Assembly (NCBI GenBank): GCA_030544685.1
Contig: CP086683.1
Location: forward strand, 2,356,001 to 2,420,000
DNA from: Pseudomonas sp. B21_DOA
Lineage (GTDB): Bacteria; Pseudomonadota; Gammaproteobacteria; Pseudomonadales; Pseudomonadaceae
Direction: 5' to 3'
DNA length: 64,000 nt
Part shown: piece by piece, positions 5,195 through 57,459 of the stretch
How the letters are laid out: every line of letters begins with the position of its first letter
How positions within the stretch are numbered: the stretch's first letter is position 1
Position numbers and translations under genes: made by a program
Notes under the pieces: model-generated
What the model was told of the DNA's origin: nothing
The model's input: the letters and a program-made list of their open reading frames with translations, nothing else
Database searches by the model: none

Positions 5195-6401
5195 AGCTCA
5201 ACGCTCCGTTTTTTTCCTTTCTTCGAGTTTTTATTCTTTTTTGTAGACGTGGGCTCACCAGTCGCTGGATCGAATTCCCCGATGTGGTTTCCCCGAGGAT
5301 CATATTTTTCAATCGTTCCGTGCATGGAGTCCCATTCAAGAATATGCCCTTTGGCGGTTTTCCATCTTTTGCGTTTTGAACCACCGCCTTGGACTACTGT
5401 TTTACGGCCGACGATTCTGGCATCGGGAAAAGCCGGCAGTATGTCAGGCGGCGGATGATATTCGTGATCCCCAGCGCGAGTACTGATGACGATGTAGACC
5501 GGTTTAATACTAGATCCGGCCGGAAACACCAAAATAAAGTCTTTGTACTCCGGCGGATAAACCGGATTCACCAGTATCCCGTCCGCCGCTTTCGTCGGTG
5601 GATAGACCCAGATATGCGGTGCCTGCGGGGCAGCCTCCAGCGCTGGAATGCCGAGAATGTCCGAGCCATCCACCGCCGGGGTCCAGAGCAGTTCGACGCC
5701 TTCACCCAGATCCGCAACGAACCGGTCGCCGCGTGCAGTGAATTGCACGACATCGACCATTTCCCAATCGCGGTTCTTGCCGGTGTAGAAACCGTAACCC
5801 TTGAGCGTGCCATCGGCCTGTTGCTCGACGCGCAGGCGCACGCGGGTTCGGGCTTGTTTGAGTGTGCTTAGTTGCTCATCGGTGTAGAGCGCGCTGTCGC
5901 CCAGGCTTGACGGCATCAAAAGCGCAACCAGGCCCACCAAAGGCGCAGCGGCTGCGCTTGATGCGAGCGCTGGCAGCGCTTCAAAAACCGAGCCTGCCAA
6001 GGCCAGACTGCCGAACCCGACCGGGATGGCGTTGGCGCTGATTTTCTTGAGTGGAATGCCGCCGCTTGGGTCGGCTTCGCGAGCGCCGAGCAGAATCAGC
6101 TCGCCGTAATCCTTCAGGCTGTCGGTCGGCACCATGCCGGAAGGATTACTGTAATCAATGATCGCATCCGGCAACTTGCAGGACTTGGCGAATACACAGC
6201 CGGCACGCACGGCTTCAGGTTTTTCGCCGCCACTTCACGGCTGTGCTCGAACGCCTCCTGCCGCGCCAGCATCGCGTCGTAAGCGTTTTGCCCGGCTTCG
6301 CGCTCGGCCAGTTCGGCGGCCGTCATATACCGCCAGGTAACGTGATGTCCGTCGCCCTGCGGTGGGTTTTGCACCCGGGGAATGTCCTCGTTCCGCGCCA
6401 C
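5191..6401 (-). CDS. S-type pyocin/colicin E3-like 16S rRNA-cleaving bacteriocin, frame broken at 6220-6224
   Basis: The restored protein (~403 aa) starts at the GTG at 6399-6401 behind an 'aaggga' site. A hydrophilic N-terminus comes first, then a conserved 'CVFAKSC..PDAIIDY' region and an Ala-rich helix. A pyocin-S-type domain occupies about residues 165-330. The C-terminal cytotoxic domain ('KRKRWK', 'EWDSMHGTIEKY', 'GEFDPATG') matches colicin E3, which cuts 16S rRNA in the decoding site. The Asp, His and Glu of 'WDSMHGTIE' correspond to the E3 catalytic residues. The tail is Lys-rich. The reading frame shifts at a five-A run (minus strand) after codon 60; one extra A joins 'EVAAK' to 'KPEAVRAGCVF'. 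Immunity genes follow directly. Confidence 0.85.
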
Positions 6402-6572
6402 TGATCGTCCCTTCGTTCACCATCGACAGCCCCTCGAAAAGGGGCTGCACGACGTTATCGAAGCGGGGAAAGCGTGGCTGTAGGACGGGTCGCTAATGAC
6501 GTGGGGATTGTTCGCTGCGTAACTGTGAGGCGGTAAATTTGCGGCGAGGGTCAAGCTCCCTCGCCACAAGGA

Positions 6573-7757
6573 TTATTGCAGTTGTGAATTCTTGCGACTC
6601 GCCGCCGCCGTCACCGCATAACCAATCACCGCCGCGAGGATCGAGCCGGTGAGGATGCCCATGCGATCCATGCCGGCGTAATCACTCACGCCGGGTTCGA
6701 AGGCCAGCGAGCCGACGAACAGGCTCATGGTGAAGCCGATGCCGCAGAGAATTGCCACGCCGAGGACCTGGCCCCAGTTGGCGCCTTGGGGCAGGGCGGC
6801 GATGCCGATCTTGACCGCCAGCCAGGTCAGGCCGAACACGCCGACGGTCTTGCCCAGCAGCAGGCCGATGGCGATGCCCATCGGTACGTCGTGGGTGAAG
6901 CTTTCGACGGTGACGCCGCTCAGCGACAGGCCGGCGTTGGCGAAGGCGAACAGCGGCAGGATGCCGTAGGCGACCCAGGGGTGCAGCGCGTGTTCGAGGG
7001 TCAGCAGCGGCGACGACTCGGCGTTTTTCGTGCGCAGGGGAATGCAGAAAGCCAGGGTCACGCCGGCCAGTGTCGCGTGGACACCGCTCTTGAGCACGCA
7101 GACCCAGAGGATCAGGCCGATGATCATGTAAGGGCCGAGCTTGACCACGCCGAGCCGGTTCATCGCCACCAGCGCGGCAATGCACGCAGCCGCCAGGCCA
7201 AGGGACAGGGTCGAGAGTTCGCCGGAATAGAAGATTGCGATGATGACGATGGCGCCGAGGTCATCGATGATCGCCAGGGTCATCAGGAACAGTTTCAGCG
7301 ACACCGGCACGCGTTTGCCGAGCAGGGCCAATACGCCGAGGGCGAAGGCAATGTCGGTGGCGGTCGGAATGGCCCAGCCACTCAGGGCGGCGGGGTTGTC
7401 GCGATTGAGGAACCAGTAGATCAGCGCCGGCACCAGCATGCCGCCGATCGCTGCTGCGCCGGGCAGGACGATCTGCGAGGGCTTGGACAACTGGCCGTCG
7501 AGCACTTCGCGTTTCACTTCCAGGCCGATCAGCAGAAAGAACATCGCCATCAGGCCGTCGTTGATCCACAGCAGCAGGGGTTTGGCGATTTTCAACGCGC
7601 CGATCTGCGCCACCACAGGAGTGTCGAGCAGGCCGGTGTACAGCCACGACAGCGGTGAGTTGTTGATGATCAGCGCGAGAATGGCTGCGGCGATCAATAG
7701 CAGACCGCTGGCGGCTTCCAACTGAAAGAAACGCGTGAAAGTGCTACGCAGAGGCAA
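6573..7757 (-). CDS. nhaA: Na+/H+ antiporter NhaA
   Basis: Inner-membrane electrogenic Na+/H+ antiporter, used for sodium export and cytosolic pH control at alkaline pH. The adjacent Asp pair of the ion site is in 'AIIDDLGAI' (~165-166), and the earlier essential Asp is in '[10 protein letters not shown]' (~135). About 12 hydrophobic segments are present. The preferred start is TTG at 7755-7757, 5 bases behind 'ggagag', giving 394 aa. An in-frame TTG at 7778 would add seven residues with no ribosome-binding site. It is intact and appears monocistronic. The AT-rich gap 7779-8007 carries its promoter and that of the divergent gene. Confidence 0.94.
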
Positions 7758-8007
7758 GGTCGCTCTCCATCGAATCAAGAAAAAGGTGAAACACCCTAAC
7801 CCGTACCGTTAGTTGTTAAAACAAAAGTTATATTCTTTTTTGTTATATGTCGTTACAGGCTGTCTCGCTCGGGCAGCACTGAGCCTAGCAGTTGCCTGAC
7901 ACATTGAGACTCAGCTGTATCTTTGCCGCCTGCGGGATTTTTCCTAAGCTTGTGGCAGACCTTTTCAGAAGACCGATCTTCTGGCTGATTCAACGAGAAC
8001 CGAAACC

Positions 8008-9234: not shown

Positions 9235-10847
9235 TTAGTCAGTGAGACCGAGGATATCCCGCGCCACCGCCTCGGCAATGCGAATCCCGTCGACACCCGC
9301 CGAGAGAATTCCGCCGGCGTAGCCCGCGCCTTCACCGGCCGGGAACAGGCCTTTGACGTTCATGCTCTGCAGCGACTCGTTGCGGGTGATGCGCAGCGGC
9401 GACGAAGTGCGCGTCTCGATTCCCGTCAGCACCGCGTCGTGCAGCGAATAACCGCGAATCTGCTTCTCGAACGCCGGCAAGGCTTCACGGATCGCCTCAA
9501 TGGCAAAGTCCGGCAGCGCCAGCGCCAGATCGCCCAGCGCGACGCCCGGCTTGTACGAAGGCTCGACTTCGCCCAGCTCGGTCGACGGCTTGCCGTTGAT
9601 GAAGTCGCCAACCAGTTGCGCCGGGGCCTTGTAGTCGCTGCCGCCAAGGATGAATGCGTGGGACTCGAGGCGCTCCTGCAACTCGATACCGGCGAGCGGG
9701 CCGCCCGGATAGTCGACTTCCGGGGTGATGCCGACGACGATGCCGGAGTTGGCATTACGCTCGTTACGCGAGTACTGGCTCATGCCATTGGTGACAACGC
9801 GATTCGGTTCCGACGTCGCCGCGACCACAGTGCCGCCCGGGCACATGCAGAAGCTGTACACCGAACGGCCGTTCTTGGCGTGGTGCACCAGTTTGTAATC
9901 GGCAGCGCCAAGTTTCGGGTGGCCGGCGTATTTGCCCAGACGCGCGCGGTCGATCAGCGATTGAGGGTGCTCGATGCGGAAACCCACCGAGAACGGCTTG
10001 GCTTCCATGAACACGCCACGGGTGTGGAGCATGCGGAAGGTGTCGCGGGCGCTGTGGCCGAGGGCCAGGACCACGTGTCTGGAATGCAGGGTTTCGCCGC
10101 TGGCCAGCTGCACGCCGACCAGTTGGCCGTTTTCGATCAGCACGTCGCTGACGCGCTCCTGGAAGCGCACTTCACCGCCCAGTTCGCGGATCTGCTCGCG
10201 CATGTTTTCGACCATACCGGTCAGGCGGAACGTACCGATGTGCGGCTTGCTGACGTAGAGGATTTCTTCCGGCGCGCCGGCCTTGACGAACTCGTGCAGG
10301 ACTTTGCGGCCGAGGAATTTCGGGTCCTTGATCTGGCTGTACAGCTTGCCGTCGGAGAACGTACCCGCGCCACCCTCGCCGAACTGCACGTTGGACTCGG
10401 GGTTGAGCACGCTTTTGCGCCAAAGGCCCCAGGTGTCCTTGGTGCGCTGACGGACTTCGGTGCCGCGCTCGAGAATGATCGGTTTGAAGCCCATTTGCGC
10501 CAGCAGCAGACCGGCGAAGATGCCGCACGGGCCGAAACCGACGACGATCGGCCGCTGGCCGAGATCGCTCGGGGCCTGACCGACGAATTTATAGCTGACA
10601 TCCGGTGCCACATTGACGTTACGGTCGTCGGCGAACTTGCCCAACACCCGGGCCTCGTCGCGTACGTTGAGGTCGATGGTGTAGATGAAGCACAGTTCGG
10701 AGGACTTTTGCGCGCGTCATAGCTGCGCTTGAACAAGGTGAAATCGAGCAGATCATCGCTGGCGATGCCCAGACGCTGCACGATAGCGGCGCGCAGGTCT
10801 TCTTCGGGATGGTCGATTGGCAGCTTGAGTTCAGTGATTCGTAACAT
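9235..10847 (-). CDS. NAD(P)/FAD-dependent oxidoreductase, frame broken at 10706-10709
   Basis: Restored length is 537 aa, starting at the ATG 10845-10847 ('MLRITELKLPIDH'). A short N-terminal domain of ~90 residues precedes a FAD-binding Rossmann motif ('VVGFGPCGIFAG'). The protein continues with 'GEGGAGTFSDGKL' and ends with a Gly-rich flavin-binding 'FPAGEGAGYAGGI'. This is the family of large flavoproteins related to electron-transfer flavoprotein dehydrogenases/YhiN-like oxidoreductases. The substrate is unknown. A four-A run on the coding strand interrupts the frame after 'SYDARK'. One extra A gives 'SYDARKKSSELCFIYTIDLN' and joins the two parts. Confidence 0.8.
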
Positions 10848-12362: not shown

Positions 12363-13275
12363 TGAGCGAAATGGATGACCTTGCTGCGTTTGCCGTGCTG
12401 ATCGAGGCCGGCAGTTTTACCTTGGCCGCGCAACAGTTGGGATGCAGCAAGGGCCAGTTGTCCAAGCGCATCAGCCAGCTCGAAGCCCAATTCAGTGTGG
12501 TCTTGCTACAGCGCACCACCCGGCGCTTGAGCCTGACGGCGGCGGGGGCGGCGCTGCTGCCGCAGGCGCAGGCGCTGGTGGCTCAAGTCGAACGCGCGCG
12601 GCAGGCTTTGGCACGTTTGAAGGACGACATGGCCGGCCCCGTACGCATGACGGTTCCGGTTTCGCTCGGCGAGACCTTCTTCGATGGCTTGTTGCTGGAG
12701 TTTTCCGGGCAATACCCGGAGGTGCAGATCGAGTTGGAGCTGAACAACAGCTATCGCGATCTGGCCCGCGATGGCTTTGATCTGGCGATTCGTGCCGAAG
12801 TGGCCAATGACGATCGGCTGGTGGCCAAGCCGCTGTTGGCGTGGCACGAAATGACCTGCGCCAGCCCGGCCTACCTCGAGCGCTTCGGCGTGCCGGCGAC
12901 GCCGCATGCCTTGGCCGAGCATCGTTGTCTGCTCAACAGCCATTACAGCGGCCGCGAAGAATGGCTGTATCACCAGCAGCACGAGTTGTTGCGGGTGCGG
13001 GTTTCGGGTCCGTTTGCCAGCAATCACTACAGCCTGTTGAAGAAAGCAGCGCTGTCCGGTGCCGGCATCGCCCGTTTGCCGTCGTATCTGCTGCAAACCG
13101 AATTGGCTGACGGCCGCTTGCGCTGGCTGCTGCGCGATTACCAGACACGACGGATGCCGATGTATCTGGTGCACCCGTATCAGGGGGATTGCCGAAACGC
13201 ACGCAGGTGTTGGCGGATTATTTGATGGGCTGGTTCAAGCGCAGTGGCGAGGCGCTGGATCGACTCCAGCGCTGA
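12363..13275 (+). CDS. LysR-family transcriptional regulator, frame broken at 13183-13187
   Basis: The N-terminal winged helix-turn-helix (residues ~1-60, 'DDLAAFAVLIEAGSFTLAAQQLG') is followed by a LysR substrate-binding domain, giving ~304 aa once restored. The frame is lost at a five-G run, where 'VHPYQG' turns into 'DCRNARRC' and ends early at 13225. One extra G gives 'YQGGLPKRTQVLADYLMGWF' and a stop at 13273-13275, the expected LysR end. It is divergent from the SDR-like gene at 11658-12257, the usual place for a LysR target. The inducer is unknown. Confidence 0.85.
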
Positions 13276-13384: not shown

Positions 13385-13861
13385 TTATTTTGCGAAACGG
13401 CGGGCAAACAGGTGATCGATCGACAATTTGCCCGGCCCGGTCGCCATCAGGTACAGCAACACCGCCGCCCAGGTGCCGTGGGTCGGGTAGGCATCCGGGT
13501 AGACGAACAGTTGGATAGTCAGGGTCATGCCGAGCAGTGCCAGCGCCGAAAACCGCGTCGCCAGGCCGAGCAGGATCAGCAGCGGAAACACATGCTCGGC
13601 AAACGCCGCCAGATGCGCGGCAATTTCCGGCGACAGCAGCGGCAGGTGGTACTCGCTTTGAAACAGCGGAATCGTCGAGTCCGCCAATCGCGGCCAGCCC
13701 AGTTCAAAAGTGCCGTCAATCAAATCGACGGCCAGTCCTTCGACCTTGGTTTGCCCGGATTTCCAGAACACGGCAGCAATGGAAGAACGCGCGACCAAAG
13801 CAATCAGGCTGTGCGGGATTTTTTCGAACAACGCGATGACGCGCAGGATAAAAGCGTTCAT
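13385..13861 (-). CDS. DoxX-family membrane protein of the bufferin-type operon
   Basis: The 158-residue inner-membrane protein has about four hydrophobic segments. It carries the DoxX pattern: 'RSSIAAVFWKSGQTK' near the start and 'AEHVFPLLILLGLATRFSALAL' centrally. Its ATG overlaps the stop of the DUF2063 gene (ATGA), so it is the last gene of a four-gene operon (DUF2282, DUF692, DUF2063, DoxX). In bufferin-type clusters such a DoxX protein is the usual fourth member (BufD). Its molecular role, perhaps electron transfer or disulfide handling, is not established. Confidence 0.85.
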   Translation of the reverse strand: MNAFILRVIALFEKIPHSLIALVARSSIAAVFWKSGQTKVEGLAVDLIDGTFELGWPRLADSTIPLFQSEYHLPLLSPEIAAHLAAFAEHVFPLLILLGLATRFSALALLGMTLTIQLFVYPDAYPTHGTWAAVLLYLMATGPGKLSIDHLFARRFAK

Positions 13862-14616
13862 GGCAACTCCTTGTAATTGAGCTGGGTGATCGCGTTATGC
13901 GCAATCAGTAAGGCGAGGGTTTGGGCGAGATCGAACGGCGGGCTGTTCCCTGCCGCCGCGAGCAGTGGCGAGCCCTGTAGCAGATGATGAAGGAACACGC
14001 TCGCACCCGGCTCAAGCGCAAACACCTCAACGTCGAGACCATTGCGCAGCACCAGAGCGTGCTGGCCTTGATTGAGGCCAATGCCCGCCAGACTTTGCTC
14101 CTGCTGGTGCGCGGCCCAGATCGCGACAACGGCGTAGGCTGAGTCGAGCAGGTGCAGCGAGGGATGCAGTTCGAAACACAGCTCACTCAGCGACTGCGGA
14201 TCGGCCAGCGCGGTGCTGACTTGCTCCGGCCGGATTGGCTGCGCATCGGCGGCGTGGTAGGCGAGGGTGCGCAAGTGCTCGAGTCGCGCAACATCGGCCA
14301 CATAGGGCACACCGGCGATGGGTTCGAATTGCCCGATGAAATCGGCGAAGTCTTCGCCGTAGCGGCTCATCAACGGACTTTGCGGCGGCTGACCGCGTAC
14401 GAAAATCGCCGCCATGGCGCGGAAGAATTCCTCACCGACCAACTGCTGCACCACCGGGTAGCTATCGGCCAGCGCATTGATCAGCGAACTCTGCACGTTG
14501 TTGCGGTACACCGCGAAACGTCGCGACGGATCAGCGCCATTGCGGCTGCACAGGCCCTTGGGATACGGCAGTTGCACATTGAGCAGGGCGGCGGCGAAGT
14601 CCGCTTGCGTACTCAT
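13858..14616 (-). CDS. DUF2063 partner protein (BufC-like)
   Basis: The 252-residue protein of the DUF2063/HvfC group has a helical N-terminal half ('[25 protein letters not shown]') and a C-terminal half with the 'NGLDVEV' beta segment. Such proteins pair with DUF692 multinuclear iron oxidases to modify precursor peptides, probably by recruiting the substrate. It overlaps the DUF692 gene by 4 bp (ATGA) and the DoxX gene by 4 bp, so translation is coupled. No metal-binding motif of its own is evident. It was once annotated as a 'putative DNA-binding domain' family, which is misleading here. Confidence 0.85.
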
Positions 14617-15509
14617 GCCGCACGCTCCGCGCGGCGCAACAGCTTTTCGGCTTGCTGTGCTTCGGCGAGCAATACGTCAAAGGCCGGCACGTGATTATCA
14701 CGTTCAATCAGCGTCGCCATCGGGCCAGTCCGTTGCAGCACCCGGCGGTACAGATTCCAGACGGCCTGATCAATCGGCGCGCCGTGATCGTCGATCAGCA
14801 AACGATCGCCGAGGTTGTCACAATCTTCAGCGAAGCCGGCCAGATGAATCTCGCCGACCGCGTGCAATGGCAGTGCGTCGAGGTAGGCGAGCGGATCACG
14901 CTGATGATTGATGCACGACACGTAGACGTTGTTGACGTCGAGCAACAAGCCACAGCCGCTGCGGCGGATCACTTCGGCGATGAACACGGGCTCGTCGATC
15001 GTCGAATGCTCAAACGCCAGATAGGTCGCCGGGTTTTCCAGCAGCATCGGACGTTTGAGCGTGTTCTGCACTTGGTCGATGTGCGTGCAGACGCGATTGA
15101 GCGTCGGCGTGTCATAGGCCAGTGGCAGCAGATCATTGAGGAACACCGGGCCGTGGCTCGACCACGCCAGATGTTCGGAAAAGGCTTGCGGTTGATAGCG
15201 CTCGATCAGCTCGGCGAGGCGTTTGAGGTGCTGGCTGTCCAGCGAACCCTCGCCACCGATCGACAGTCCCACGCCGTGCAATGACAGCGGGTACTGCTCG
15301 CGAATCAGACCGAGAAAGTGATGAAACGGGCCGCCGGCCACCATGTAGTTTTCGGCGTGGACCTCGAAGAACCCGAGGTCCGGTACGGAGCCGAGCACTT
15401 CGAGGAAGTGCCCGTTCTTGAGCCCCAGCCCGGCACGGGCAGGGAGCTCGGAACGAGCTGCCTGAGTGCGCGGCAGGGACGGTTCGTGTTGATTGAACAT
15501 GGGCGTCAC
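14613..15509 (-). CDS. DUF692 multinuclear non-heme iron oxidative enzyme (BufB-like)
   Basis: The 298-residue TIM-barrel protein belongs to the MNIO/DUF692 family, which includes methanobactin MbnB. The family's metal-ligand segments are visible in order: 'EVHAENYM', '[10 protein letters not shown]', '[10 protein letters not shown]', 'LENPATYL', '[10 protein letters not shown]', 'IHLAGF', 'DDHGAPI' and 'IERDNHVP'. Members turn Cys residues of ribosomal peptides into oxazolone/thiooxazole-type heterocycles that bind copper. The precursor gene (DUF2282) lies just upstream and the partner protein DUF2063 just downstream. The assignment to bufferin synthesis is from family and gene order. Confidence 0.9.
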
Positions 15510-15525
15510 TCAGGCAGGCCGTGGA

Positions 15526-15831
15526 TCAGGACTTGGCTTTGAAGGCTTCGAGCTGACCGAAACCGGTCGGCGAGGTTTTGCTTTCGGTGGTGGCGCAGGT
15601 GCCTTTCGGAACGAGTTTCCAGGCGTTGGCCTGATAGTCCATTTTCGCCGTGCCGGCGCAGGTAGTCCCGGCACCTGCGGCGCAATCGTTCTTGCCCTTC
15701 ATGGCCACGCCGAAGCATTTTTCCATGTTGGCATCGGCGGCCTGGGCGGTGGAGACAGTGGCGATGCTCAGAGCGGAACCGAGGGCCAGAACCAGGGCGG
15801 TAGCGGACAGGGTACGGGTAGTCGCAGTCAT
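15526..15831 (-). CDS. DUF2282 Cys-rich precursor peptide (BufA-like)
   Basis: The 101-residue protein has a clear Sec signal peptide ending near 'TAQA' (~residue 31). The mature part contains exactly four Cys (39, 50, 58, 79) in 'MEKC', 'KNDC', 'AGTTC' and 'PKGTC' contexts. This is the BufA1/DUF2282 pattern, and it heads a precursor-enzyme-partner-DoxX operon. Family knowledge: bufferins are exported, heterocycle-bearing peptides that protect the periplasm from excess copper. The gene starts with ATG 15829-15831 behind 'ctggagaa', and the DUF692 gene begins 17 bp after its stop. A copper-responsive promoter was not identified. Confidence 0.88.
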
Positions 15832-16823: not shown

Positions 16824-17590
16824 TTACGCTTCCCCAGGTAGGCTTTGATCACTTCAGGATTGTCGCGGATCTGTTCCGGTGTGCCGTCGGCCAGCGGTGT
16901 GCCCTGGTTGATCACGACGATGTGGTCGGAAATGCTCATGACCAGTTTCATGTCGTGCTCGATCAGCAGCACGGTGACGTTGTGCTCTTCGCGCAACACA
17001 CCGATCAGCGCCTTGAGGTCTTCGGTTTCCTTCGGGTTCAGGCCGGCGGCCGGTTCGTCGAGCATGAGGATCCGCGGGCGGGTCATCATGCAGCGGGCGA
17101 TTTCCAGACGCCGTTGCTGGCCGTAGGCGAGGGTGCCGGCGGTGCGGTTGGCGAACTCTTTGAGGTTGACCTTTTCCAGCCAGTACTCGGCAAATTCCAT
17201 CGCCTCGCGCTCGCTTTTGCGGAACGCCGGGGTCTTGAACAGGCCGGACAGGAAGTTGGTGTTCAAGTGACGGTGCTGGGCGATCAAGAGGTTCTCGACC
17301 GCGGTCATGTCCTTGAACAAACGCACGTTCTGGAAAGTCCGCACCACGCCTTTGAGGGCGATCTTGTGGCCCGGCAGGCCCTGGATCGGCTCGCCGTCGA
17401 GGAGGATGCTGCCGCCGGTAGGCTGATAGAAACCGGTCAGGCAGTTGAACACGGTGGTCTTGCCGGCGCCGTTCGGGCCGATCAGTGCAACCACCTGCTT
17501 TTCCTTGACGGTCAGCGCCACGCCGTTGACCGCGAGCAAGCCGCCGAAGCGCATGCTCAGATTGTCGACTTTAAGGATCTCGCGGCTCAT
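16824..17590 (-). CDS. livG: branched-chain amino-acid ABC transporter ATP-binding protein LivG/BraF, frame broken at 16832-16835
   Basis: ATPase with Walker A 'GPNGAGKTT', signature '[13 protein letters not shown]' and Walker B '[11 protein letters not shown]'. It is ~255 aa when restored. A four-G run (coding strand) near the end shifts the frame after 'AYLG'. In the sequence as given, the protein therefore reads past its stop into livF and gains a foreign tail. One extra G restores the family ending 'AYLGEA' followed by TAA, which abuts the livF ATG. It overlaps the livM stop by 4 bp. Confidence 0.92.
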
Positions 17591-22083: not shown

Positions 22084-24282
22084 TCAGACCGAGTAAGTCT
22101 TCCCGGTATGGTTATTCAGCGAAATCACCTTGGTCTTGCCGATCCGGTGGCGGTAGATCTCGCGCAGGTATTTGATCGACTTCTTCACGCAATCGCGCGA
22201 CAGGCGAATGTCATTGATCGAGACAAACTTGTCCTTGTCGTTGATCAGCTCGCGATATTTCTTCTCGTACATCGGTTTGATCGCGTACCAGTTGGTATCG
22301 AGGATCTTCGCCGGGTTTTCGAATTCGTTGAGCAGGTCGTCGATCCGCTCCTCGTCGAAGTCTTCCTGAATGATGAAGTCGAGAATCGAGTTATCCAGCG
22401 TCTCGTCGAAACGGTACGGGTTCTTCGCGAAGCAGCGCTTGATGAATGCCACGATCAGCGTGAGGAAATCGTCCGACAGGCACGGGCTTTTGGCGATCAG
22501 GGTGGTCAGCGACAGGTTGGCCGAAGCGCCGATCACCAGCGCATAACGCTTGAGCGTGGTGTTGGGGAACAGGCTGTTGAGGTGGGTCTTCAACCGGTTC
22601 AAGTCCATGTAGGACAGTTTGTAGTCTTTCGGCAGCGAGACGATCGACACCACCGACGAGCAATTCTTGAAGAAGTGCAGGTCGTGCAGCGCGGCGGCGT
22701 CGTAACCGGAATTCTTGTACTGCTCAAGCGAAGCGCGATAACGCTTGGATTCGATCGGCAGCAGGCTGATGCCTTCGATGGCCTGTGTGACCTTGTTGAA
22801 GTGCGGCAGGTCGATCGAACGGAAGAACAGGTCGTCGATGTTCAGGCGTTGCGGCTCTTTATCGAAGACCTTGAACTTGTCGCTGCTTGGCGGTGGGGTT
22901 TCCGGCACCACCGATTCGGCGTAGGCAATCGCCACCGGGCCGGCCAGACTCATGAACAGGTCGTTGGCATCCAGGCGAATGGTTTCGCCGATGTCGATGC
23001 CGGCGCGGCGGAAGTAGTTCTGGTCGTAGTCAGTGGTGACTGCCTGCGCCGTCAGAATGTTGAAGATCTGTTGGGAGATGTACTGGTTGGCGTGCTTCTC
23101 CATGGCATTGACATCAATGTTCTGGATGTTGCCGTCATCGCTTTCTTCGGCGTAACGCATGATGTCGTTGGAGATCAGCATCATCGCGTTCCACGGGCGG
23201 ATACGCCCCATCACGCTGGCTTCGCTGCTGTCTTCGTTAGCGAAGTTGTAGGAGAAATCCCATTCCTCCGACAGATATTTGCACAGCAAGCGCCCGGCGT
23301 TGATGTGCAGCGCCTCGGACATTTCGCTGCGGTGGTCGGAAATGTTCGGCAGCACGCAGATGCCGCTGGTGAAGATCGGCTCGAACACAAACGAATGTCC
23401 GCTCTTGCCGTCGTGCTCGTCCATCGGTTTGGTGTCGAACGTCTTGTTCATGTACGAGTGCTGCTGAGCGAGGCCGAACTCCGAGGCCATGCCCGAACCG
23501 GTACCGCCGCCGGCGCTGAAGATCGAGAAATACAGGCGTGACTGGTTGGCCTTGATCCCGCAGCTGTCGATCAGGTACGAGTGGATCATTTTCCAGTCGG
23601 GGCTGGAGAAGCGCTGGGTGTCCTTGTTGAGGATGATCTTCGCCAGGTACTGGCCGAGGATCGGCGCGTTACCGGCGCCACCGGCATGGACTTCGGACAA
23701 GTCCATGATCTTCATTTTGCTGTAGTCGCGCAGGAAGCCGCTTTTCTCGCCCTTGCGCGAGAAACGGATGCGCCCGGCAATGTCCTTGTCGAGGTCGCCG
23801 AGCATTACCAGCGGTTCGACCAGAAACACCGGTTTGGTCGATTTGCTGGTGCCGATGCGCAGGTTGTTCTTGATCCACTGCGCCGGGCTGTAGCCCTTGT
23901 CGGCCAGACGCCGGTCGGTCGGGCGATCTTCGTTGTTGAATTCGTTGAGGTAGAACTTGCGCGCGTTGTACACCAGCTCCGCCACGTCGAGGGCGATGTT
24001 GGAGCCGCAGCGACCAAGGCCGATCAGGCACACCGAGGGGAATTCCTGATCGTTGTGCTGCTCGTTGTCGCCTTCCTGATGCGCCGGGCGCGGGAACACC
24101 GAATCGCGCAGGCCGTCGAGGTTATCGAGGATGCGGTCAGTGTTGGTTTCGGTGAAGTACAGGTATTGCTGGGTCGACAGCGGGCGCGAGGGCGGCGTCG
24201 ATCTGGATAATGACGCGCTGTTCGCGGCGGGGCTCAGGGTCAGATCGGCTGTTGCACTGGCGGGATTGTTTTTGGAGGTCAT
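22084..24282 (-). CDS. stand-alone tubulin/FtsZ-superfamily protein
   Basis: A large (732 aa) soluble protein. A Ser/Pro-rich N-terminus of ~75 residues precedes a nucleotide-binding domain. That domain has 'VCLIGLGRCGSNIA' (T1-like Gly loop, ~84-97) and the tubulin signature 'FSAGGGTGSGM' (~255-265). The segment 'IRLDANDLFMSLAG' (~435-448) resembles the FtsZ T7 loop, keeping both acidic residues (D438, D441) with Arg in place of the loop Asn. The ~280-residue C-terminal region is unique. Such Tubulin_2-like proteins are scattered in bacteria and poorly characterised. No partner gene is adjacent. GTPase activity and polymerisation are predicted, not shown. Confidence 0.75.
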   Translation of the reverse strand: MTSKNNPASATADLTLSPAANSASLSRSTPPSRPLSTQQYLYFTETNTDRILDNLDGLRDSVFPRPAHQEGDNEQHNDQEFPSVCLIGLGRCGSNIALDVAELVYNARKFYLNEFNNEDRPTDRRLADKGYSPAQWIKNNLRIGTSKSTKPVFLVEPLVMLGDLDKDIAGRIRFSRKGEKSGFLRDYSKMKIMDLSEVHAGGAGNAPILGQYLAKIILNKDTQRFSSPDWKMIHSYLIDSCGIKANQSRLYFSIFSAGGGTGSGMASEFGLAQQHSYMNKTFDTKPMDEHDGKSGHSFVFEPIFTSGICVLPNISDHRSEMSEALHINAGRLLCKYLSEEWDFSYNFANEDSSEASVMGRIRPWNAMMLISNDIMRYAEESDDGNIQNIDVNAMEKHANQYISQQIFNILTAQAVTTDYDQNYFRRAGIDIGETIRLDANDLFMSLAGPVAIAYAESVVPETPPPSSDKFKVFDKEPQRLNIDDLFFRSIDLPHFNKVTQAIEGISLLPIESKRYRASLEQYKNSGYDAAALHDLHFFKNCSSVVSIVSLPKDYKLSYMDLNRLKTHLNSLFPNTTLKRYALVIGASANLSLTTLIAKSPCLSDDFLTLIVAFIKRCFAKNPYRFDETLDNSILDFIIQEDFDEERIDDLLNEFENPAKILDTNWYAIKPMYEKKYRELINDKDKFVSINDIRLSRDCVKKSIKYLREIYRHRIGKTKVISLNNHTGKTYSV

Positions 24283-24478: not shown

Positions 24479-25317
24479 ATGATGTCAACGCTACCTTCGT
24501 TGGGGTTTGCCGGAATCGGCCTGATGGGCCTGCCCATGTGCCGGCGTCTGCTGGCGGCGGGTTACCCGCTGACAGCGTGGAACCGCAACCCGGACAAATG
24601 CGCATCGCTGGTTGCGGCCGGCGCCCGCCAGGTATCGAGCCCTGCCGAACTGTGCGCGCACGCCGACATCGTCATGCTGTGTCTGGCCGACACTGCCGTG
24701 GTGCGTGAAGTGGTGTTTGGCACTGGCGGTATCGCCGAAGGTGCGAAAAACGGCCAGCTGTTGGTGGATTTCTCCAGTCTTGAACCCACCGCGACTCGCG
24801 AGATGGCCGCAGAGCTGGCCGAGAAAACCGGCATGGGCTGGCTTGACTCCCGGTGTCCGGCGGCGTGGTCGGCGCCGAGGCCGGGAGCCTGGCGATCATG
24901 GTCGGTGGTGCAGCGGCAGATCTTCAGCGCGTGCGCCCGGTGCTGCTCAGCCTCGGTCAGCGCGTCACGCACATGGGCGGCGTCGGCGCCGGGCAAGTGA
25001 CCAAGGCCTGCAACCAGATGATCGTCGCCTGCAACGCGCTGGTGATTGCCGAAGTGGTGGCGTTGGCCGAGCAGGCCGGGGTCGATGCCAGTCTGATCGC
25101 CGAGGCGTTGGCCGGTGGTTTTGCCGATTCCAAGCCGTTGCAGATCCTTGCTCCGCAAATGGCCGAGAGCCGTTTCGAACCGATCAAGTGGCACGTGCGC
25201 ACGCTGCTCAAGGACCTCGACACAGCGGTGAAATTTTCCCGCGAGCAGGGCTCGGCAACGCCAATCAGCGGATTGGCCGCACAGTTGATGCGCCTGCATG
25301 GGGCGCAAGGTTTTTAG
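24479..25317 (+). CDS. 3-hydroxyisobutyrate dehydrogenase-family NAD(P) oxidoreductase (GarR-like), frame broken at 24849-24851
   Basis: The restored ~279-residue beta-hydroxyacid dehydrogenase has the N-terminal Rossmann motif 'GFAGIGLMGLPM' and the family substrate motif 'SGGVVGAEAGSLAIMVGG' around 122-139. The catalytic Lys lies in 'GQVTKACNQM' (~172). It likely reduces tartronate semialdehyde or a related 2-hydroxy-3-oxo acid; the exact substrate is uncertain. The frame is lost at a CCC run: 'GWLDS' turns into 'RCPAAWSA'. One extra C gives 'GWLDSPVSGGVVG'. The start is one of two adjacent ATGs (24479/24482). Confidence 0.85.
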
Positions 25318-27546: not shown

Positions 27547-27696
27547 AGCGTGCCCCGTTCCGCATTCATCTGGCCCGAGCGTCAATCAACGCAGGCGAAT
27601 GAAAGGAGTATAGAGGCGGTTTTCAGCCTGCACGGCGTAGTGGCACATTGGTGGTAATGATTTTGCCATTAGCCTCATAGCGATTTGCGCTAAGGC

Positions 27697-28064
27697 TCAG
27701 GCAATGCGCTCCAGCGGCAGGTCGTTCCAGTGTGGCGGCAAGGGTGGCAGGCCGTGGGCGGCGCGGGCCTTGTCGCAGTCGGGGTTGTGCTCGCCGTTCT
27801 CCCACGACGCCTCGAACTCGCGGCAGGTGCTCGAACGCTTGTCATAGATCGTACACGCCACAGCGCTGCCGACCTCACCCGCCAATGACGTGCAACGCGT
27901 CGGTTTGCGGTCGGTGCCGATCATTGCCACTCGGCTTGGAGTGATCTGCGCAACCAGTTCATCGGGCACCGTCCCGCCAGCGGATGAGCACTCACCCCAG
28001 AAAAAGACACACGAAAATGGGAACAGCAGGCACCGCAATTCAGACACGGACTGGCTTCGGACAT
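27697..28064 (-). CDS. YkgJ-family cysteine-cluster protein, frame broken at 28001-28005
   Basis: The restored 122-residue protein starts at ATG 28062-28064 with 'SPCLNCGACCSHF', the CxxCxxCC cluster of YkgJ/UPF0153 proteins. It continues with further Cys ('RCTSL', 'ACTIYDKRSSTCREF', 'PDCDKAR') that probably bind zinc or an Fe-S cluster. A five-A run (plus strand; five T on the coding strand) breaks the frame after 'RVSF'; one extra base gives 'VSFFWGECSSAGG'. The function of the family is unknown. The gap 28065-28362 upstream shows no further gene. Confidence 0.85.
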
Positions 28065-36415: not shown

Positions 36416-36615
36416 TCATGGCTCTTCGGCTTTGAGTTCCTTTTCGATCTTTTCGATTTCCTGCTTGAATACCTGATCCTGAACAGTAGGGCGCTTGCGC
36501 CATGCCTTGCGTTCCGGTTCCGGCTGAGCGGCGTAGGTGGTGACTTCCCGCCGTAAACTTCCTTGTAACGTTGTTCCTGGCGCTCTAGTTCCGCGCGCAG
36601 TTCGTCTTTTGTCAC
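36416..36615 (-). CDS. small conserved pseudomonad protein, frame broken at 36547-36549
   Basis: The restored ~66-residue protein starts at GTG 36613-36615 ('[22 protein letters not shown]'). It reads on as '[20 protein letters not shown]', then a charged helix ('[13 protein letters not shown]') to TGA at 36416-36418. A GGG run (coding strand) after 'VYGG' breaks the frame; one extra G restores it. The protein is highly charged and probably helical or coiled. Its function is unknown and it has no partner gene nearby. Confidence 0.7.
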
Positions 36616-37246: not shown

Positions 37247-38087
37247 ATGAACGATCAAATGCGCAACTCCTTCACGTCGGTGGCGCCGCCCATCGTCGCC
37301 TCGCCGGCCAAGCGCATTCAGGCGCTGACTGGTGATCCGGATTTCATGACCTCGCTGGCCCGAGGCCTGGCGGTGGTGCAGGCGTTTCAGGAACGCAAAC
37401 GCCACCTGACCATTGCGCAGATCAGTCATCGCACGGAAATCCCCGCGCCGCCGTGCGTCGTTGCCTGCACACCTTGATCAAGCTCGGCTACGCCACCACT
37501 GACGGGCGCACCTATTCGCTGCTGCCAAAAGTGCTGACCCTTGGTCATGCCTATCTGTCCTCGACACCGCTGGCCGTATCCGCCCAACCGTATCTGGACC
37601 GCATGAGCGAGCAGCTGCACGAAGCCTGCAACATGGCGACGCTGGAGGGCGATGACATTCTCTATATCGCGCGTTCGGCGACCACTCAGCGATTGATCTC
37701 GGTCGACCTTTCCGTCGGCGGGCGTCTCCCTGCCTATTGCACGTCGATGGGGCGCATTCTGTTGGCCGCGCTGGACGACACCTCCTGGGCGAATACCTCG
37801 ACCACGCCGAACTGGTGGCCAAGACCAGCCGCACCATTCATACCCCCGACGCGTTGCTCGAATGTTTGCAGCAGGTGCGGCAGCAGGGCTGGTGCATTGT
37901 CGATCAGGAACTGGAACAGGGCCTGCGCTCGATCGCCGTGCCGGTGTACGACGCCTCCGGGCAAGTGGTCGCCGCGCTGAATGTCAGCACCCACGCCGGG
38001 CGGGTCAGTCGCGCCGAGCTGGAGCAGCGCTTCCTGCCCGGCCTGCTCAGCGCCAGTCGCGACCTCAGTGCGCAGCTGTTCGCCTGA
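37247..38087 (+). CDS. pcaR: IclR-family pca regulator PcaR, frame broken at 37441-37444 and 37784-37785
   Basis: The restored ~281-residue protein has an IclR winged helix-turn-helix (~residues 33-95: 'FMTSLARGLAVVQAF', 'LTIAQISHRTEIPRAAVRRCL') and an effector domain ('YCTSMGRILLAA', 'DQELEQGLRSIAVPVYDASG'). It closely follows P. putida PcaR, which binds beta-ketoadipate and activates pca transcription. Two single-base losses break it: a CCCC run after 'TEIP' and a CC pair after 'DDTS'. One extra C at each restores 'TEIPRAAVRRC' and 'DDTSLGEYLDH'. It heads the pca cluster. Confidence 0.92.
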
Positions 38088-41637: not shown

Positions 41638-42838
41638 TGCGTGACGTGTATATCTGCGATGCGATTCGCACCCCTATTGGCCGTTTCGGCGGCGCACTGT
41701 CCGCCGTGCGCGCCGATGACCTCGCCGCCGTGCCGATCAAAGCCTTGATGGAGCGCAATCCATCGGTGGACTGGAACGCGGTCGATGAGGTGTTCCTCGG
41801 CTGCGCCAATCAGGCCGGCGAAGACAACCGCAACGTTGCGCGCATGGCATTGCTGCTCGCCGGCCTGCCGGACAGTGTGCCCGGCGTGACGCTCAATCGC
41901 CTCTGCGCTTCGGGCATGGACGCGATCGGCACCGCATTCCGCGCCATCGCCAGTGGCGAGATGGAGCTGGCGATTGCCGGTGGCGTCGAATCGATGTCCC
42001 GCGCGCCGTTCGTGATGGGCAAGGCCGACGCGGCGTTTTCGCGCAATATGAAACTGGAAGACACCACCATCGGCTGGCGTTTCATCAACCCGCTGATGAA
42101 GGCGCAGTACGGCGTCGATGCCATGCCGCAGACCGCTGATAACGTCGCCGACGACTACAAGGTTTCGCGCGCAGATCAGGACGCCTTTGCCTTGCGCAGT
42201 CAGCAACGTACCGCCGCCGCTCAAGCCGCCGGATACTTCGCTGAAGAAATCGTCGAAGTGCGCATCGCCCACATAAAAGGCGAAACCGTGGTCAGCGAGG
42301 ACGAACATCCGCGCGCCGACACCACCATTGAAGCGCTGGCCAAACTGAAGCCAGTCAATGGCGCGGACAAAACCGTCACCGCCGGCAATGCCTCCGGGGT
42401 CAACGATGGTGCTGCTGCGCTGATTCTGGCTTCGGCCGAAGCTGTGAAAAACACGGCCTGACCGCCCGCGCAAAAGTGCTCGGCATGGCCAGCGCCGGCG
42501 TCGCGCCACGGGTGATGGGCATCGGCCCGGTGCCAGCGGTGCGCAAACTGACCGAGCGCCTTGGCGTCGCGGTCAGCAATTTCGACGTGATCGAACTCAA
42601 CGAAGCGTTTGCCAGCCAGGGCCTCGCGGTATTGCGCGAGTTGGGCCTGGACGACGATGCGCCGCAGGTCAACCCGAATGGCGGCGCGATTGCCCTCGGT
42701 CACCCATTGGGCATGAGCGGTGCGCGGCTGGTGCTGACTGCTCTGCATCATCTGGAAAAGACTGGCGGTAAGAAAGGTCTGGCGACCATGTGCGTCGGTG
42801 TTGGCCAGGGTCTGGCTCTGGCCATCGAACGTGTCTGA
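41634..42838 (+). CDS. pcaF: beta-ketoadipyl-CoA thiolase, frame broken at 42447-42451
   Basis: The restored 401-residue thiolase splits beta-ketoadipyl-CoA to succinyl-CoA and acetyl-CoA. The active-site Cys lies in 'LNRLCASGM' (C91). The catalytic His and second Cys lie in '[14 protein letters not shown]' and 'MCVGVGQG' near the end. A five-A run breaks the frame after 'EAVK' and creates a false stop at 42461. One extra A gives '[17 protein letters not shown]', joining both parts. The start is ATG 41634 or 41637. Confidence 0.93.
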
Positions 42839-42874: not shown

Positions 42875-43578
42875 ATGACTGACAAGCCTGGTTACCGTCG
42901 CCCACAGACAGGCACTCAGCCTGACTACCTGCACCCGACGTATCAATCCACCAACCTGCGCTCGCCGTCCAAGCCTTTGGTGTACCTGCCCCATTCACTT
43001 TCGGAAATCACCGGGCCGACCATCGGTGCCGAACACGTTGCCGAGAAGGACAATGACCTCACCGCACAGCACGACGGCGAGCCGTTGGGCGAGCGCATCA
43101 TCATTCACGGCCGCGTGCTCGACGAAGACGGCCTGCCGGTGCCGGGGATTCTGGTGGAGATCTGGCAGGCCAACGCCGCCGGCCGCTACAACCATGCCCG
43201 CGACCTGCACGACGCGCCGCTGGACCCGAACTTCACCGGCACCGGCCGCACCGTCACCGATGCCGATGGCTGGTACCAGTTCCAGACCATCAAGCCCGGC
43301 GCCTATCCGTGGGGCAACCACCACAACGCCTGGCGCCCGGCGCATATCCATTTTTCCCTGTTCGGGCCGAGCATCCTTACGCGTCTGGTCACGCAAATGT
43401 ACTTCCCCGGTGATCCGCTGCTGGCGTACGACCCGATCTACAACTGCGTGCCGGACACTTCGGCCAAGGAACGCTTGATCGCCAGTTTCGATCTGGAAAA
43501 ACCATTCCGTCCTACGCCCTCGGTTACCGCTGGGACATCGTGCTGCGCGGCCGTGAAGCCACGCCGATGGAGAAATAA
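42875..43578 (+). CDS. pcaH: protocatechuate 3,4-dioxygenase beta subunit, frame broken at 43497-43501
   Basis: Iron(III)-bearing beta subunit (234 aa restored) that cleaves protocatechuate between the hydroxyls to beta-carboxymuconate. The iron ligands (two Tyr, two His) are in 'ANAAGRYNHARD', 'IKPGAYPWGNHH' and 'AWRPAHIHFSLFG'. A five-A run breaks the frame after 'DLEK', and as a result the sequence reads through into pcaG as an apparent 423-residue fusion. One extra A gives 'DLEKTIPSYALGYRWDIVL' and the proper TAA at 43576-43578, one base before the pcaG ATG. Confidence 0.93.
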
Positions 43579-44146: not shown

Positions 44147-44179
44147 GAGAACACCCCAAATCCCCTGCAGGACAGATTC

Positions 44180-44312
44180 CCTGTGGTGAGGGGATTTATC
44201 CCCGCTGGGCTGCGAAGCAGCCCCAAAACCAGTCGGCGCGGTATTCAGATGAACCGCGTGTATCTGCTTTGCGAGTGCTTCGCACTCGAGCGGGGATAAA
44301 TCCCTCGCCACA
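44180..44312. repeat. long palindromic repeat with inner hairpins
   Basis: The outer arms 'tgaggggatttatccccgct' and 'agcggggataaatccctcg' bracket two inner hairpins ('ggctgcgaagcagcc', 'gagtgcttcgcactc'). It is an intergenic repeat type seen in pseudomonads, here between pcaG and pcaT, and may affect read-through. Confidence 0.75.
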
Positions 44313-44406
44313 AACACTGATCCAGACGTGGGTGATGATCCAATGTGGAACGGGACTGTTGCAAAGTATGTCTAGACTGTGACTGTCCCTATCGAGTGAA
44401 AAAACA

Positions 44407-45701
44407 ATGACAACCACCACCTCCCACTACACCGGCGAAGAGCGCAGCAAGCGCATCTTTGCCATCGTCGGCGCTTCCTCCGGCAATCTAGTCGAGTGGT
44501 TCGACTTCTACGTCTACGCCTTCTGCGCGATCTATTTCGCCCCGGCGTTTTTCCCTCCGATAACCCCACCGTGCAACTGGTCAACACCGCTGGCGTGTTC
44601 GCTGCCGGGTTCCTGATGCGGCCGATTGGTGGCTGGATTTTCGGCCGGGTCGCTGACAAGCACGGGCGCAAGAACTCGATGCTCATCTCGATTCTGATGA
44701 TGTGCTTCGGCTCGCTGCTGATTGCCTGCCTGCCGACCTACAAGGAAATCGGCGTCTGGGCGCCGGTGCTGTTGCTGTTCGCGCGTTTGCTGCAAGGTCT
44801 GTCGGTGGGCGGCGAGTACGGCACCACCGCGACCTACATGAGTGAAGTTGCGCTCAAGGGCCAGCGTGGATTTTTCGCCTCGTTCCAGTACGTGACCCTG
44901 ATCGGCGGACAACTGCTGGCGGTGTCGCTGGTGGTGGTGCTGCAACAGTTCCTCACTGAAGAAGACCTGCGTGCCTACGGCTGGCGGATCCCGTTCGTGG
45001 TCGGTGCGGTGGCGGCGCTGATTTCGCTGTTCCTGCGTCGTTCGCTGAAGGAAACCACCAACGAGGAAACCCGTGCGCACAAAGACGCCGGCAGCATCAC
45101 TGCACTGTTTCGCGATCACAAAGCGGCGTTCATCACCGTCCTCGGTTACACCGCCGGCGGCTCGCTGATTTTCTACACCTTCACCACCTACATGCAGAAA
45201 TACCTGGTGAACACCGCCGGCATGCACGCCAAGACCGCCAGCTACATCATGACCGGCGCGCTGTTCCTGTATATGTGCATGCAGCCGTTATTCGGCATGC
45301 TCGCCGACAAGATCGGCCGACGGAACTCGATGCTCTGGTTCGGCGCCCTCGGCACGCTGTTCACCGTGCCGATTCTGCTCAGCCTGAAAAGCATCACCAG
45401 CCCGTTCCTCGCCTTCGTACTGATCACCCTGGCGCTGGCGATTGTGAGCTTCTACACCTCGATCAGCGGTCTGGTAAAAGCCGAGATGTTCCCGCCGGAA
45501 GTCCGCGCCCTCGGTGTCGGCCTGGCTTACGCGGTGGCCAATGCAATCTTCGGTGGTTCGGCAGAGTTTGTGGCCCTGAGCCTCAAGGCCGGCGGCATGG
45601 AAAACGCCTTCTACTGGTACGTCACGGCGATGATGGCGGTGGCTTTCCTGTTCAGTCTGCGTTTGCCCAAGCAGGCGAAGTATTTGCACCACGATCTGTA
45701 A
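44407..45701 (+). CDS. pcaT: MFS dicarboxylate (beta-ketoadipate/alpha-ketoglutarate) transporter PcaT, frame broken at 44553-44555
   Basis: The restored 431-residue metabolite:H+ symporter has 12 hydrophobic segments. Its opening motif '[18 protein letters not shown]' and loop motif '[15 protein letters not shown]' are typical. PcaT sits between pcaF/HG and pcaB in Pseudomonas and carries pathway dicarboxylates. A CCC run breaks the frame after 'APAFFP'; one extra C gives '[19 protein letters not shown]', which matches the family. ATG 44407 is 45 bp upstream of the break-region shadow start. Confidence 0.88.
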
Positions 45702-45746: not shown

Positions 45747-47110
45747 ATGACTCAGCGACCAGGCAATCAATTGTTTGATGCCTACTTCACCGCCCACGAT
45801 ATGCGCGAAGTGTTCTGCGATCAGGGCCGCGTCCAGGCGATGCTCGATTTCGAAGCGGCGCTGGCCCGGGCCGAGGCGCGGGTCGGGCTGATTCCTTCAT
45901 CGGCCGTGGCACCGATTGCCGCAGCGTGCGACGCCAGTCTGTATGACTTCGCAGCGCTGGGCGAGGCGATTGCCACGGCCGGTAATTCGGCGATTCCACT
46001 GGTCAAGGCCTTGGGCAAGCAGATCGCTTCGAGCGATGCCGAAGCCGAGCGCTATGTGCATCTGGGCGCGACCAGTCAGGACGTGATGGATTCCGGGCTG
46101 GTCCTGCAATTGCGCCAGGCGCTGGCGCTGATCGAAGACCAACTGGCGCAACTGGCCGACTCGCTCGCTGCTCAGGCACAACGTTTCGCTACCACGCCAC
46201 TGGCCGGGCGCACCTGGCTGCAACATGCCACGCCGGTGACTCTCGGTATGAAAATCGCCGGATGGCTGGGCGCCGTAACGCGCAGCCGTCTGCGTCTACA
46301 GGAGCTGAAACCGCGGCTGCTGGTGCTGCAATTCGGTGGCGCCTCCGGCACGCTCGCGGCGCTGGGTGAACAGGCGTTGCCGATCGCCAAAGCATTGGCC
46401 GAAGAGCTGCAACTGACCCTGCCCGAGCAACCGTGGCATACCCAGCGTGATCGCATCGTCGAATTCGGCGCGGTGCTTGGCCTGATCGCCGGCAGCCTCG
46501 GCAAATTCGGCCGCGACATCAGCCTGTTGATGCAGACCGAAGCAGCGGAGGTTTTGAGCCTGCGGCACCGGGCAAGGGCGGGTCGTCGACCATGCCGCAC
46601 AAACGCAATCCGGTCGGCGCGGCGGTGCTGATCGGCGCGGCCACGCGGGTGCCGGGGCTGGTGTCGACGCTGTTCAGCGCGATGCCGCAGGAACATGAAC
46701 GCAGCCTCGGTTTGTGGCATGCCGAATGGGAAACCCTGCCGGAAATCTGCTGCCTGGTGTCCGGTTCGCTGCAACAGGCGCGCTTGCTGGCCGACGGTCT
46801 GGAAGTCGACGCGGCGCGCATGGCGCGCAACCTCGAATTGACCCAAGGCCTGGTGCTGGCCGAAGCGGTGAGCATCGTCCTCGCCCAACGCGTCGGCCGC
46901 GACACCGCGCATCACCTGCTCGAACAATGCTGCAAACGCGCCGTGGCCGAGCAACGCCATTTGCGTGCGGTGCTGGCTGACGAGCCGCAAGTCACCGCCG
47001 AACTCAGTGGCGCTGAACTCGATGATCTTCTGAACCCCGCGCATTACCTCGGCCAGGCGCAAGCCTGGGTCGAGCGCGCGGTGGCTGAACACAACGCTTT
47101 GACTGTCTGA
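45747..47110 (+). CDS. pcaB: 3-carboxy-cis,cis-muconate cycloisomerase, frame broken at 46552-46555
   Basis: The restored 454-residue member of the fumarase/argininosuccinate-lyase superfamily turns beta-carboxymuconate into gamma-carboxymuconolactone. Conserved segments visible are 'HLGATSQDVMDSG' and 'TWLQHATPVTLG'. The superfamily signature 'GSSTMPHKRNP' is split by the frame break at a TTTT run. One extra T turns 'AAEVLSLRHRARAG' into 'AAEVFEPAAPGKGGSSTMPHKRNP'. ATG 45747 follows 'gcaagga'. Its TGA is 12 bp from pcaD. Confidence 0.93.
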
Positions 47111-55406: not shown

Positions 55407-56562
55407 TTACTCCCTTTGCCGCCGGCGGCTTTGTCAGCTGCCTGTGCGGGGGCCGGGTTCTTGGTGCCGACGTTAGTCGCCTCGGTCGCTTTGACCTCGA
55501 CGCCCGGTTTGACGTACTGCAGCCCTTCGGTGATCAGACGATCGCCGGCTTTCAGGCCGTCTTCGATCAGCCACTGGCTGCCGACGGTGCGGCTGGCCTT
55601 GAGCTGACGCAGCTCGACCTTGTTGTCGGCGCCGACGACCAGCGCGGTCGGGGTGCCTTTGAGGTCGCGGGTGACGCCTTGTTGCGGCGCGAGGATCGCT
55701 GCGCTGTTGACGCCGGCCTGCAACTGGGCGTGGACGAACATGCCTGGCAGCAGGGTGTGATCCGGGTTCGGGAATACCGCGCGCAGGGTCACCGAGCCGG
55801 TGGTCTGGTCAACCGAGACTTCGGAGAATTCCAGCTTGCCGTCGAGCTTGTACTGGCTGCCGTCTTCCAGGGTCAGCTTGACCGCAGCGGCGTTGTCGCC
55901 AGCCTTCTGCAGACGGCCGCTTTCCAGTTCGCGGCGCAGTTCCAGCAGTTCCACCGACGACTGGGTCACGTCGACGTAGATCGGGTCGAGCTGCTGAATC
56001 ACTGCCATTGCATCGGCCTGGCCATTGCTGACCAGTGCGCCTTCGGTGACCGAAGAGCGGCCGATACGGCCAGAGATCGGCGCGTAGACCTTGGTGTAAC
56101 GCACGTTGATCTGCGCAGTCTGCAGCGACGCTTCCGATTGCAGGCGGTTGGCCAGTGCGGTGTCGTATTCCTGACGGCTCACGGCTTGTTCGTCGACCAG
56201 TTGCTTGTAGCGGTCGGAAATCGACTTGGTCGAACGCAGCTCGGCTTCGGCGCTTTTCAGCGTAGCTTCATAGACCGACGGATCGATCTGATACAGCTGC
56301 TGGCCGGCTTTGACGTCGGCACCTTCCTTGAACAGGCGCTTGAGAATGATGCCGTTGACCTGCGGGCGAACTTCCGCGATGCGGAACGCACTGGTGCGGC
56401 CCGGAAGTTCCGAGGTCAGGGTAAAGGCTTGTGGTTGCAGGGTGACGACGCCGACCTGAGGAGGCGGAGCGGCTGGGGCCGCTTCTTCCTTTTACATCCG
56501 CTGAGCAGCGATGCCAGGGCGACGGCAGTGACCAGAGCGGTAACAGCTGGCTTGAATTGCAT
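55407..56562 (-). CDS. emhA: RND efflux periplasmic adaptor, frame broken at 55412-55414 and 56490-56493
   Basis: The restored 385-residue membrane-fusion lipoprotein starts at ATG 56560-56562 and has the lipobox 'LSGC' (Cys23). Barrel-sandwich, helical hairpin and beta-barrel domains follow ('LFKEGADVKAGQQLYQIDP', 'DRYKQLVDEQAVSRQEYD'). It links EmhB to EmhC. The first break is at an AAAA run right after the lipobox ('GCKR' for 'GCKKEEAAP'). The second is at a GGG run at the very end, which removes the natural TAA at 55407-55409. One extra base at each site restores the gene. Confidence 0.9.
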
Positions 56563-56642
56563 GAAGATCCTCGGGTCAGGCGCGCAAGAAGCGCACAAGA
56601 AGTGTGAAAGAGTAAAAATCGGGCACCGGGTGGATAAGTAGC

Positions 56643-56684
56643 TTGCTAAGTAATATACTTACGTTCATGGTTGTTTGTAAACAC
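56643..56684. promoter_or_regulatory. EmhR/TtgR-type operator in the emhA-emhR gap
   Basis: This AT-rich segment on the reverse strand reads 'TTTACAAACAACCATGAACG' then 'TAAGTATATTACTTAG'. It matches the ttgABC/ttgR operator recalled from P. putida, where TtgR binds and represses both divergent promoters. It lies ~80 bp before emhA and ~145 bp before emhR. The whole 265 bp gap otherwise holds no gene. Confidence 0.78.
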
Positions 56685-56827
56685 CTGCGCCGCGTACCCA
56701 CCCTGATACAAAAGCCGTCGCAAGGTTTGAAATTGTAGGCCGGGGAGTCGATTCACGAGAGATCGCCCCTCTTTATTCAGCGGATATTCAGCCATCCCTG
56801 AAACATCCTGTTTGAGGTTTTACTGCC

Positions 56828-57459
56828 ATGGTCCGTCGTACCAAAGAGGAAGCTCAGGAAACCCGCAGCCAGATTCTGGAAGCGGCCGAGAAAGCCTTTT
56901 ATGAAAGGGGGTTGCCCGCACCACCCTGGCGGACATCGCGACCCTCGCCGGCGTGACGCGTGGCGCCATCTACTGGCATTTCAGCAACAAGGCCGACCTC
57001 GTCCAGGCCATGCTCGACAGCCTGCACGAACCGCTGGATGAACTGGCCAAGGCCAGCGAAAGCGAAGACGAACCGGACCCGCTGGGCTGCATGCGGCAGT
57101 TGCTGATTCATTTGTTTCATCAAGTTGCACTGGACCCGAAAACCCGGCGCATCAACGAAATTCTGTTTCATAAGTGCGAGTTCACCGATGAAATGTGCGA
57201 TCTGCGCCAGCAGCGCCGGACGGCCAGTCTCGATTGCAACGTGCGTATCGGCCTGACCCTGCGTAATGCGGTGAATCGCGGCCAGTTGCCGGAAGACCTC
57301 GACACTGCCCGCGCGGCGATCAGCATTCATGCCTACATCGACGGCCTGCTGTACGGCTGGCTGCTGGCTCCGGACAGCTTCGAACTGCATGCCGAGGCTG
57401 AACGCTGGGTCGACACCGGGCTGGACATGCTGCGCCTGAGCCCAAGCCTGCGCAAATGA
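56828..57459 (+). CDS. emhR: TetR-family repressor of the efflux operon, frame broken at 56907-56911
   Basis: The restored 210-residue regulator has a TetR helix-turn-helix ('[18 protein letters not shown]', '[23 protein letters not shown]') and a ligand-binding C-terminal half like TtgR/EmhR. Drugs or flavonoid-type ligands release it from the operator at 56643-56684 and induce emhABC. The frame is lost at a five-G run in the DNA-binding domain ('ERGLPAPPW' instead of '[13 protein letters not shown]'). One extra G restores it. If the break were real, the pump would be derepressed. Confidence 0.92.

Follow-up and report, generated by a model that had tools for sequence, protein, structure and literature searches.

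Errors in homopolymer length usually remain in assemblies made from long reads only (PMC8812927). The closest described cases come from two studies. In the Pseudomonadales long-read assembly Pss508, deletion errors are found in runs of 2-8 bases, most of them in runs of 4-5 (Kastor study; PMC12007338), and in a P. aeruginosa nanopore assembly from a metagenomic data set, 2417 deletions and 538 insertions were counted after Racon (Homopolish study; PMC8011154). The window analyzed here is a stretch of 64,000 nucleotides, bases 2356001-2420000 of the 5,940,484-base single-contig genome of Pseudomonas sp. B21_DOA. As in the Kastor study, the losses are one-base losses in runs of 2-8 bases, with most at 4-5, that break frames across a Pseudomonadales genome, and a small share of them lies outside runs. 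The two cases differ in that the candidates described there are backed by reads whereas those reported here are backed by relatives only, and in that A/T runs are dominant there whereas the 49 losses assigned here by BLAST against five relatives are divided among T (14), C (14), G (11) and A (10). The predominance of losses is likewise common to the Homopolish assembly and to the window, where 26 losses in ~61 kb would correspond, by hand calculation, to roughly 2,500 missing bases genome-wide; that assembly is a nanopore product, whereas the platform used for ours is deduced and the window has no one-base gain. The loss pattern and its rise with run length fit the published accounts of poorly polished long-read assemblies.

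The nearest named loci place the host of the window in the genus Pseudomonas. Among the matches listed (80 named loci from one scan), the nearest is P. siliginis SWRI31, with 96.1% identity over 2.8 kb, and beside it stands Pseudomonas sp. CFBP13508, with 95.9% over 2.8 kb. Eight relatives were used for the comparison of the window, namely three close ones that cover the window only (G029, G030 and G031, with 95.5%, 95.2% and 93.2% DNA identity, respectively) and five more distant ones with 83-89% identity. The species is represented by one genome in the collection searched, the present assembly, the completeness of which is 95.32% compared with 99-100% in 18 of 18 genomes of the same genus.

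A preliminary description of this DNA had reported 16 one-base losses, each in a homopolymer, that break at least 14 genes. One-base losses at all 16 sites are confirmed as a property of the deposited sequence: each site has a net difference of -1 from every close relative that covers it (all three for 15 sites and two for 6220-6224), and each is -1 against at least one of the covering distant relatives, the only other values being -2 at 16832 and +2 at 55412, both in the same distant relative (G017). The gene count stands as well, with 14 genes for which intact ORFs exist in relatives, two of them hit twice; in 13 of the 14, the intact relative contains a Pfam domain, and the 14th is a short ORF for which Pfam gave no match. 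The description of every site as a shortened run applies to 15 of the 16, where at least one close relative shows a plainly longer run, but fails at 13183-13187, where the missing base is placed outside the run in all three alignments with close relatives.

The genes broken on the minus strand are an S-type pyocin gene with Pyocin_S and Cytotoxic domains (6220..6224) and an FAD-dependent oxidoreductase gene (10706..10709), both of which are intact in relatives, a LivG-type ATPase gene of a branched-chain amino acid ABC transporter, with the break close to the 3' end (16832..16835), a small CxxCxxCC-domain gene that is called in one of three relatives (28001..28005), and an HlyD-type membrane-fusion gene adjoining an RND (AcrB-family) efflux gene, which is broken twice (55412..55414 and 56490..56493) and has intact copies in relatives. 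On the plus strand, breaks are found in genes for a LysR-type regulator (13183..13187, the site discussed above), a 3-hydroxyisobutyrate dehydrogenase-like protein (24849..24851), an IclR-type regulator with two breaks (37441..37444 and 37784..37785), a thiolase (42447..42451), protocatechuate 3,4-dioxygenase beta (43497..43501), an MFS transporter adjoining the dioxygenase genes (44553..44555), a lyase-family protein (Lyase_1, ADSL_C) encoded in the same gene run as the dioxygenases (46552..46555), and a TetR-type regulator (56907..56911). The remaining break (36547..36549) lies in the short ORF, of uncertain strand, that spans 66-93 aa in relatives. At site 42447, a one-base difference from the window is present in all 80 named Pseudomonas loci among the matches listed.

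With the five distant relatives only, 30 window-specific out-of-frame indels were counted over the 57.4 kb for which three or more of them give coverage (25 of -1, four of +1 and one of +2), compared with 6, 9, 16, 20 and 8 in these relatives themselves. After the closer relatives were added, the four +1 events and the +2 event were no longer specific to the window. The eight-relative count comprises 28 window-specific out-of-frame events, 26 of which are -1 and two -2 (at 4378 and 28128, outside called coding sequence), and includes no +1 event specific to the window, in agreement with the earlier statement that no site needs a gained base. All 16 sites are among the 26, and the original list was incomplete; of the ten additional -1 events, nine are non-coding and the other (25311) is located at a gene end. 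In the other eight genomes, the corresponding -1/+1 tallies, which pool coding and non-coding DNA, are more balanced (2/6, 5/8, 11/19, 7/7, 5/5, 0/2, 4/1 and 2/1).

Assignment of the losses to runs by BLAST against five relatives (83-92% identity) was too blurred, with 20 of the 49 losses seemingly outside runs, and was mostly cleared by the three closer relatives (93.2-95.5%, window only). The comparison of indels in and out of homopolymers against close Pseudomonas genomes, which had been proposed in the preliminary description, places 23 of the 26 losses within runs of at least 3 bases and three outside them. Such runs make up 12.1% of the bases, and the enrichment is beyond chance (binomial p ~1e-18). 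The share of runs in G029 that are shortened in the window climbs from 0.11% at length 3 (2/1827) to 1.7% at length 4 (6/354), 11% at length 5 (9/81) and 24% at length 6 (6/25), with 0/4 at length 7. Long runs are also scarcer in the assembly, with 3.9 runs of at least 7 bases per 100 kb (464 kb counted) versus 8.6-13.3 in five relatives, two of which have long masked stretches that were each scored as one run; runs of at least 8 bases are absent from the 464 kb of the assembly and present in each of the five relatives (140-360 kb). A preference of losses for longer runs is also what replication slippage would give in a mismatch-repair-defective lineage, in which real one-base losses would have piled up in homopolymers.

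The essential genes speak against such a lineage. The rpoB gene is split between two matches, both of which contain a stop, versus a single 1363-residue frame in all five relatives; rpoC has a late start and a stop, with a frame of 1360 compared with 1410-1420 in five of five; and murF is divided into pieces of 262 and 244 residues versus one frame of 461-462 in each of the five, with no other match in the genome near that level that could represent a second murF copy. In rplB, the first residues are missing (frame of 269 versus 280). Assembly-specific -1 events are also found in murE, ftsI, murC, rplB and rpsS, named via their intact relatives; for those in rplB, rpsS, murE and murC, and for the second one in rpoB, all of which are near a gene end, lethality is less clear. 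A cell with broken rpoB, rpoC and murF is not viable, and hence these breaks must be absent from the organism. The cause preferred in the preliminary description, uncorrected sequencing indels, is thus supported by breaks in indispensable genes. The mismatch-repair defect, which had been ranked there as less likely, is rejected: mutS (886 aa frame) and mutL (653 aa) are open, the broken rpoB, rpoC and murF would be intolerable for a living mutator, 26 losses stand against no one-base gain, and the density of losses near essential clusters is not clearly below that in the window. We accordingly assign this possibility a negligible probability. The open frames of mutS, mutL and ftsZ are themselves as expected by chance at this error density. 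It could be argued that the shortened runs are real and that slippage on them during expression restores full RpoB, RpoC and MurF proteins; read-through of this kind is reportedly known from some AT-rich endosymbionts, and we find it exceedingly improbable in the present case.

The density of losses was compared in three regions, the window, an rpoB-S10 region and a division/cell-wall region. In their coding DNA, the assembly has 25 out-of-frame events in 109.5 kb, all of them -1, versus three in 495.5 kb of the same coding regions pooled from five relatives. Outside coding sequence, the counts are 33 in the assembly and 105 in the five relatives pooled, so that, given the many natural non-coding indels in the relatives too, the clear excess is confined to the coding part, in which indels seldom arise naturally. 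Coding losses have a similar density in the window (13 in 50.3 kb) and in the two essential-cluster regions (12 in 59.2 kb), which also contain non-essential genes. Within strict essential blocks, two losses in 18.0 kb (rpoB-to-S10) and four in 17.4 kb pass the coding filter. At the window rate, by hand calculation, ~4.7 would be expected in the rpoB-to-S10 block and ~9 in both blocks together, where six are observed; the chance of six or fewer is ~0.2, and therefore essential genes are not clearly spared.

The spread over the genome was sampled with a reference-free scan based on codon usage in 15 evenly spaced stretches of 20 kb (300 kb of 5.94 Mb). The scan gave 54 shift calls, with at least one in each of the 15 stretches, compared with 16 calls in 400 kb of two control relatives, where 12 of 20 stretches had calls (rank test p 3e-6), which amounts to a control density of about a quarter of that in the assembly. 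Losses outnumber gains by 43 to 11 in the assembly and by 9 to 7 in the controls; some of the gain calls are probably false. These counts are incomplete and noisy: the scan recovered 41 of 65 simulated losses in coding DNA and 41 of 80 in all, the controls yield 9 and 7 calls per 200 kb (~0.05 per coding kb), and training on long ORFs of the two control genomes slightly biases the comparison in their favor. Further sets of relatives do not exceed the controls: around the window, they have 14 calls in 400 kb (4 in G016, 3 in G005, 2 in G017, 3 in G010 and 2 in G011), and in the two essential regions they have one in 298 kb and one in 100 kb, versus seven in 60 kb and seven in 40 kb in the assembly. 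Within the window itself, the scan made 14 calls, two of them as gains; the sites at 13183, 28001, 36547 and 42447 escaped it. Some antisense ORFs are among the genes called from the conservation of ORFs, and the resulting tallies of broken genes (12/56, 4/15 and 13/44) are not usable as gene counts. Breaks that occur in all sampled parts of the genome, are nearly absent from the coding DNA of relatives and become more frequent with run length bear out the proposal of sequencing indels.

The same data bear on another alternative, the true decay of genes in a strain with a restricted niche. In its favor, the catabolic, regulatory and efflux genes affected in the window may be dispensable, but genes for transcription and cell-wall synthesis are broken alike, the calls extend to every one of the spaced stretches, and 26 of the 28 window-specific out-of-frame events are single-base losses. 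By a crude count, there are nine candidate in-frame stops in 38,581 codons, which, judging from their positions, appear to lie at gene ends or in doubtful overlapping ORFs. Decay as the cause of the frame breaks is, in our estimate, extremely unlikely.

The frame breaks are therefore best read as consensus sequencing errors, and, judging from the sequence comparisons, their cause almost certainly lies in the sequence and not in the organism. The genome was most likely assembled to one contig from long single-molecule reads without accurate polishing, a history that we infer, as regards the platform, mainly from the single contig. The consensus would then often be one base short in runs of about four or longer, and the shortened runs would produce false frameshifts in genes everywhere, whether needed for life or not. 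What the data themselves show is that single bases are missing, that this depends on run length, and that breaks occur all over the sampled genome and in essential genes. Pyrosequencing and ion-semiconductor platforms likewise misjudge homopolymer lengths and could have been the source of the errors instead of long reads; a single contig of 5.94 Mb would be hard to obtain from such reads alone, which favors long reads and makes this source improbable.

Consensus errors of this kind have consequences for the use of the genome. Claims of gene loss in the species that are based on the present assembly are unsafe, and the false frameshifts may enter pangenome, pseudogene and essential-gene statistics.

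Several other features of the window deserve mention. A gene run on the minus strand (13385-15831) encodes DUF2282, an MbnB/TglH/ChrH-type RiPP enzyme, DUF2063 and DoxX, and resembles a bufferin-type RiPP cluster. A 732-residue ORF (22084-24282, minus strand) is matched neither by Pfam (1e-5) nor by NCBIfam (1e-3), yet is clearly coding, with 70 of 75 differences from G029 in third codon positions. The GGDEF/EAL-type ORF at 24562-27585 (minus strand) is 1007 aa long versus 736 aa in G005; the scan places a shift at 25363, close to the extra -1 event at 25311, and the gene may be a further broken one, at its 3' end. A REP-like palindrome with perfect arms of 30 bases (39738-39848) occurs again at numerous loci, both in this genome and in its relatives. 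An imperfect intergenic palindrome is located at 44166-44314; in G029 and G030, related copies of it form near-tandem arrays with a spacing of ~220-230 bases.
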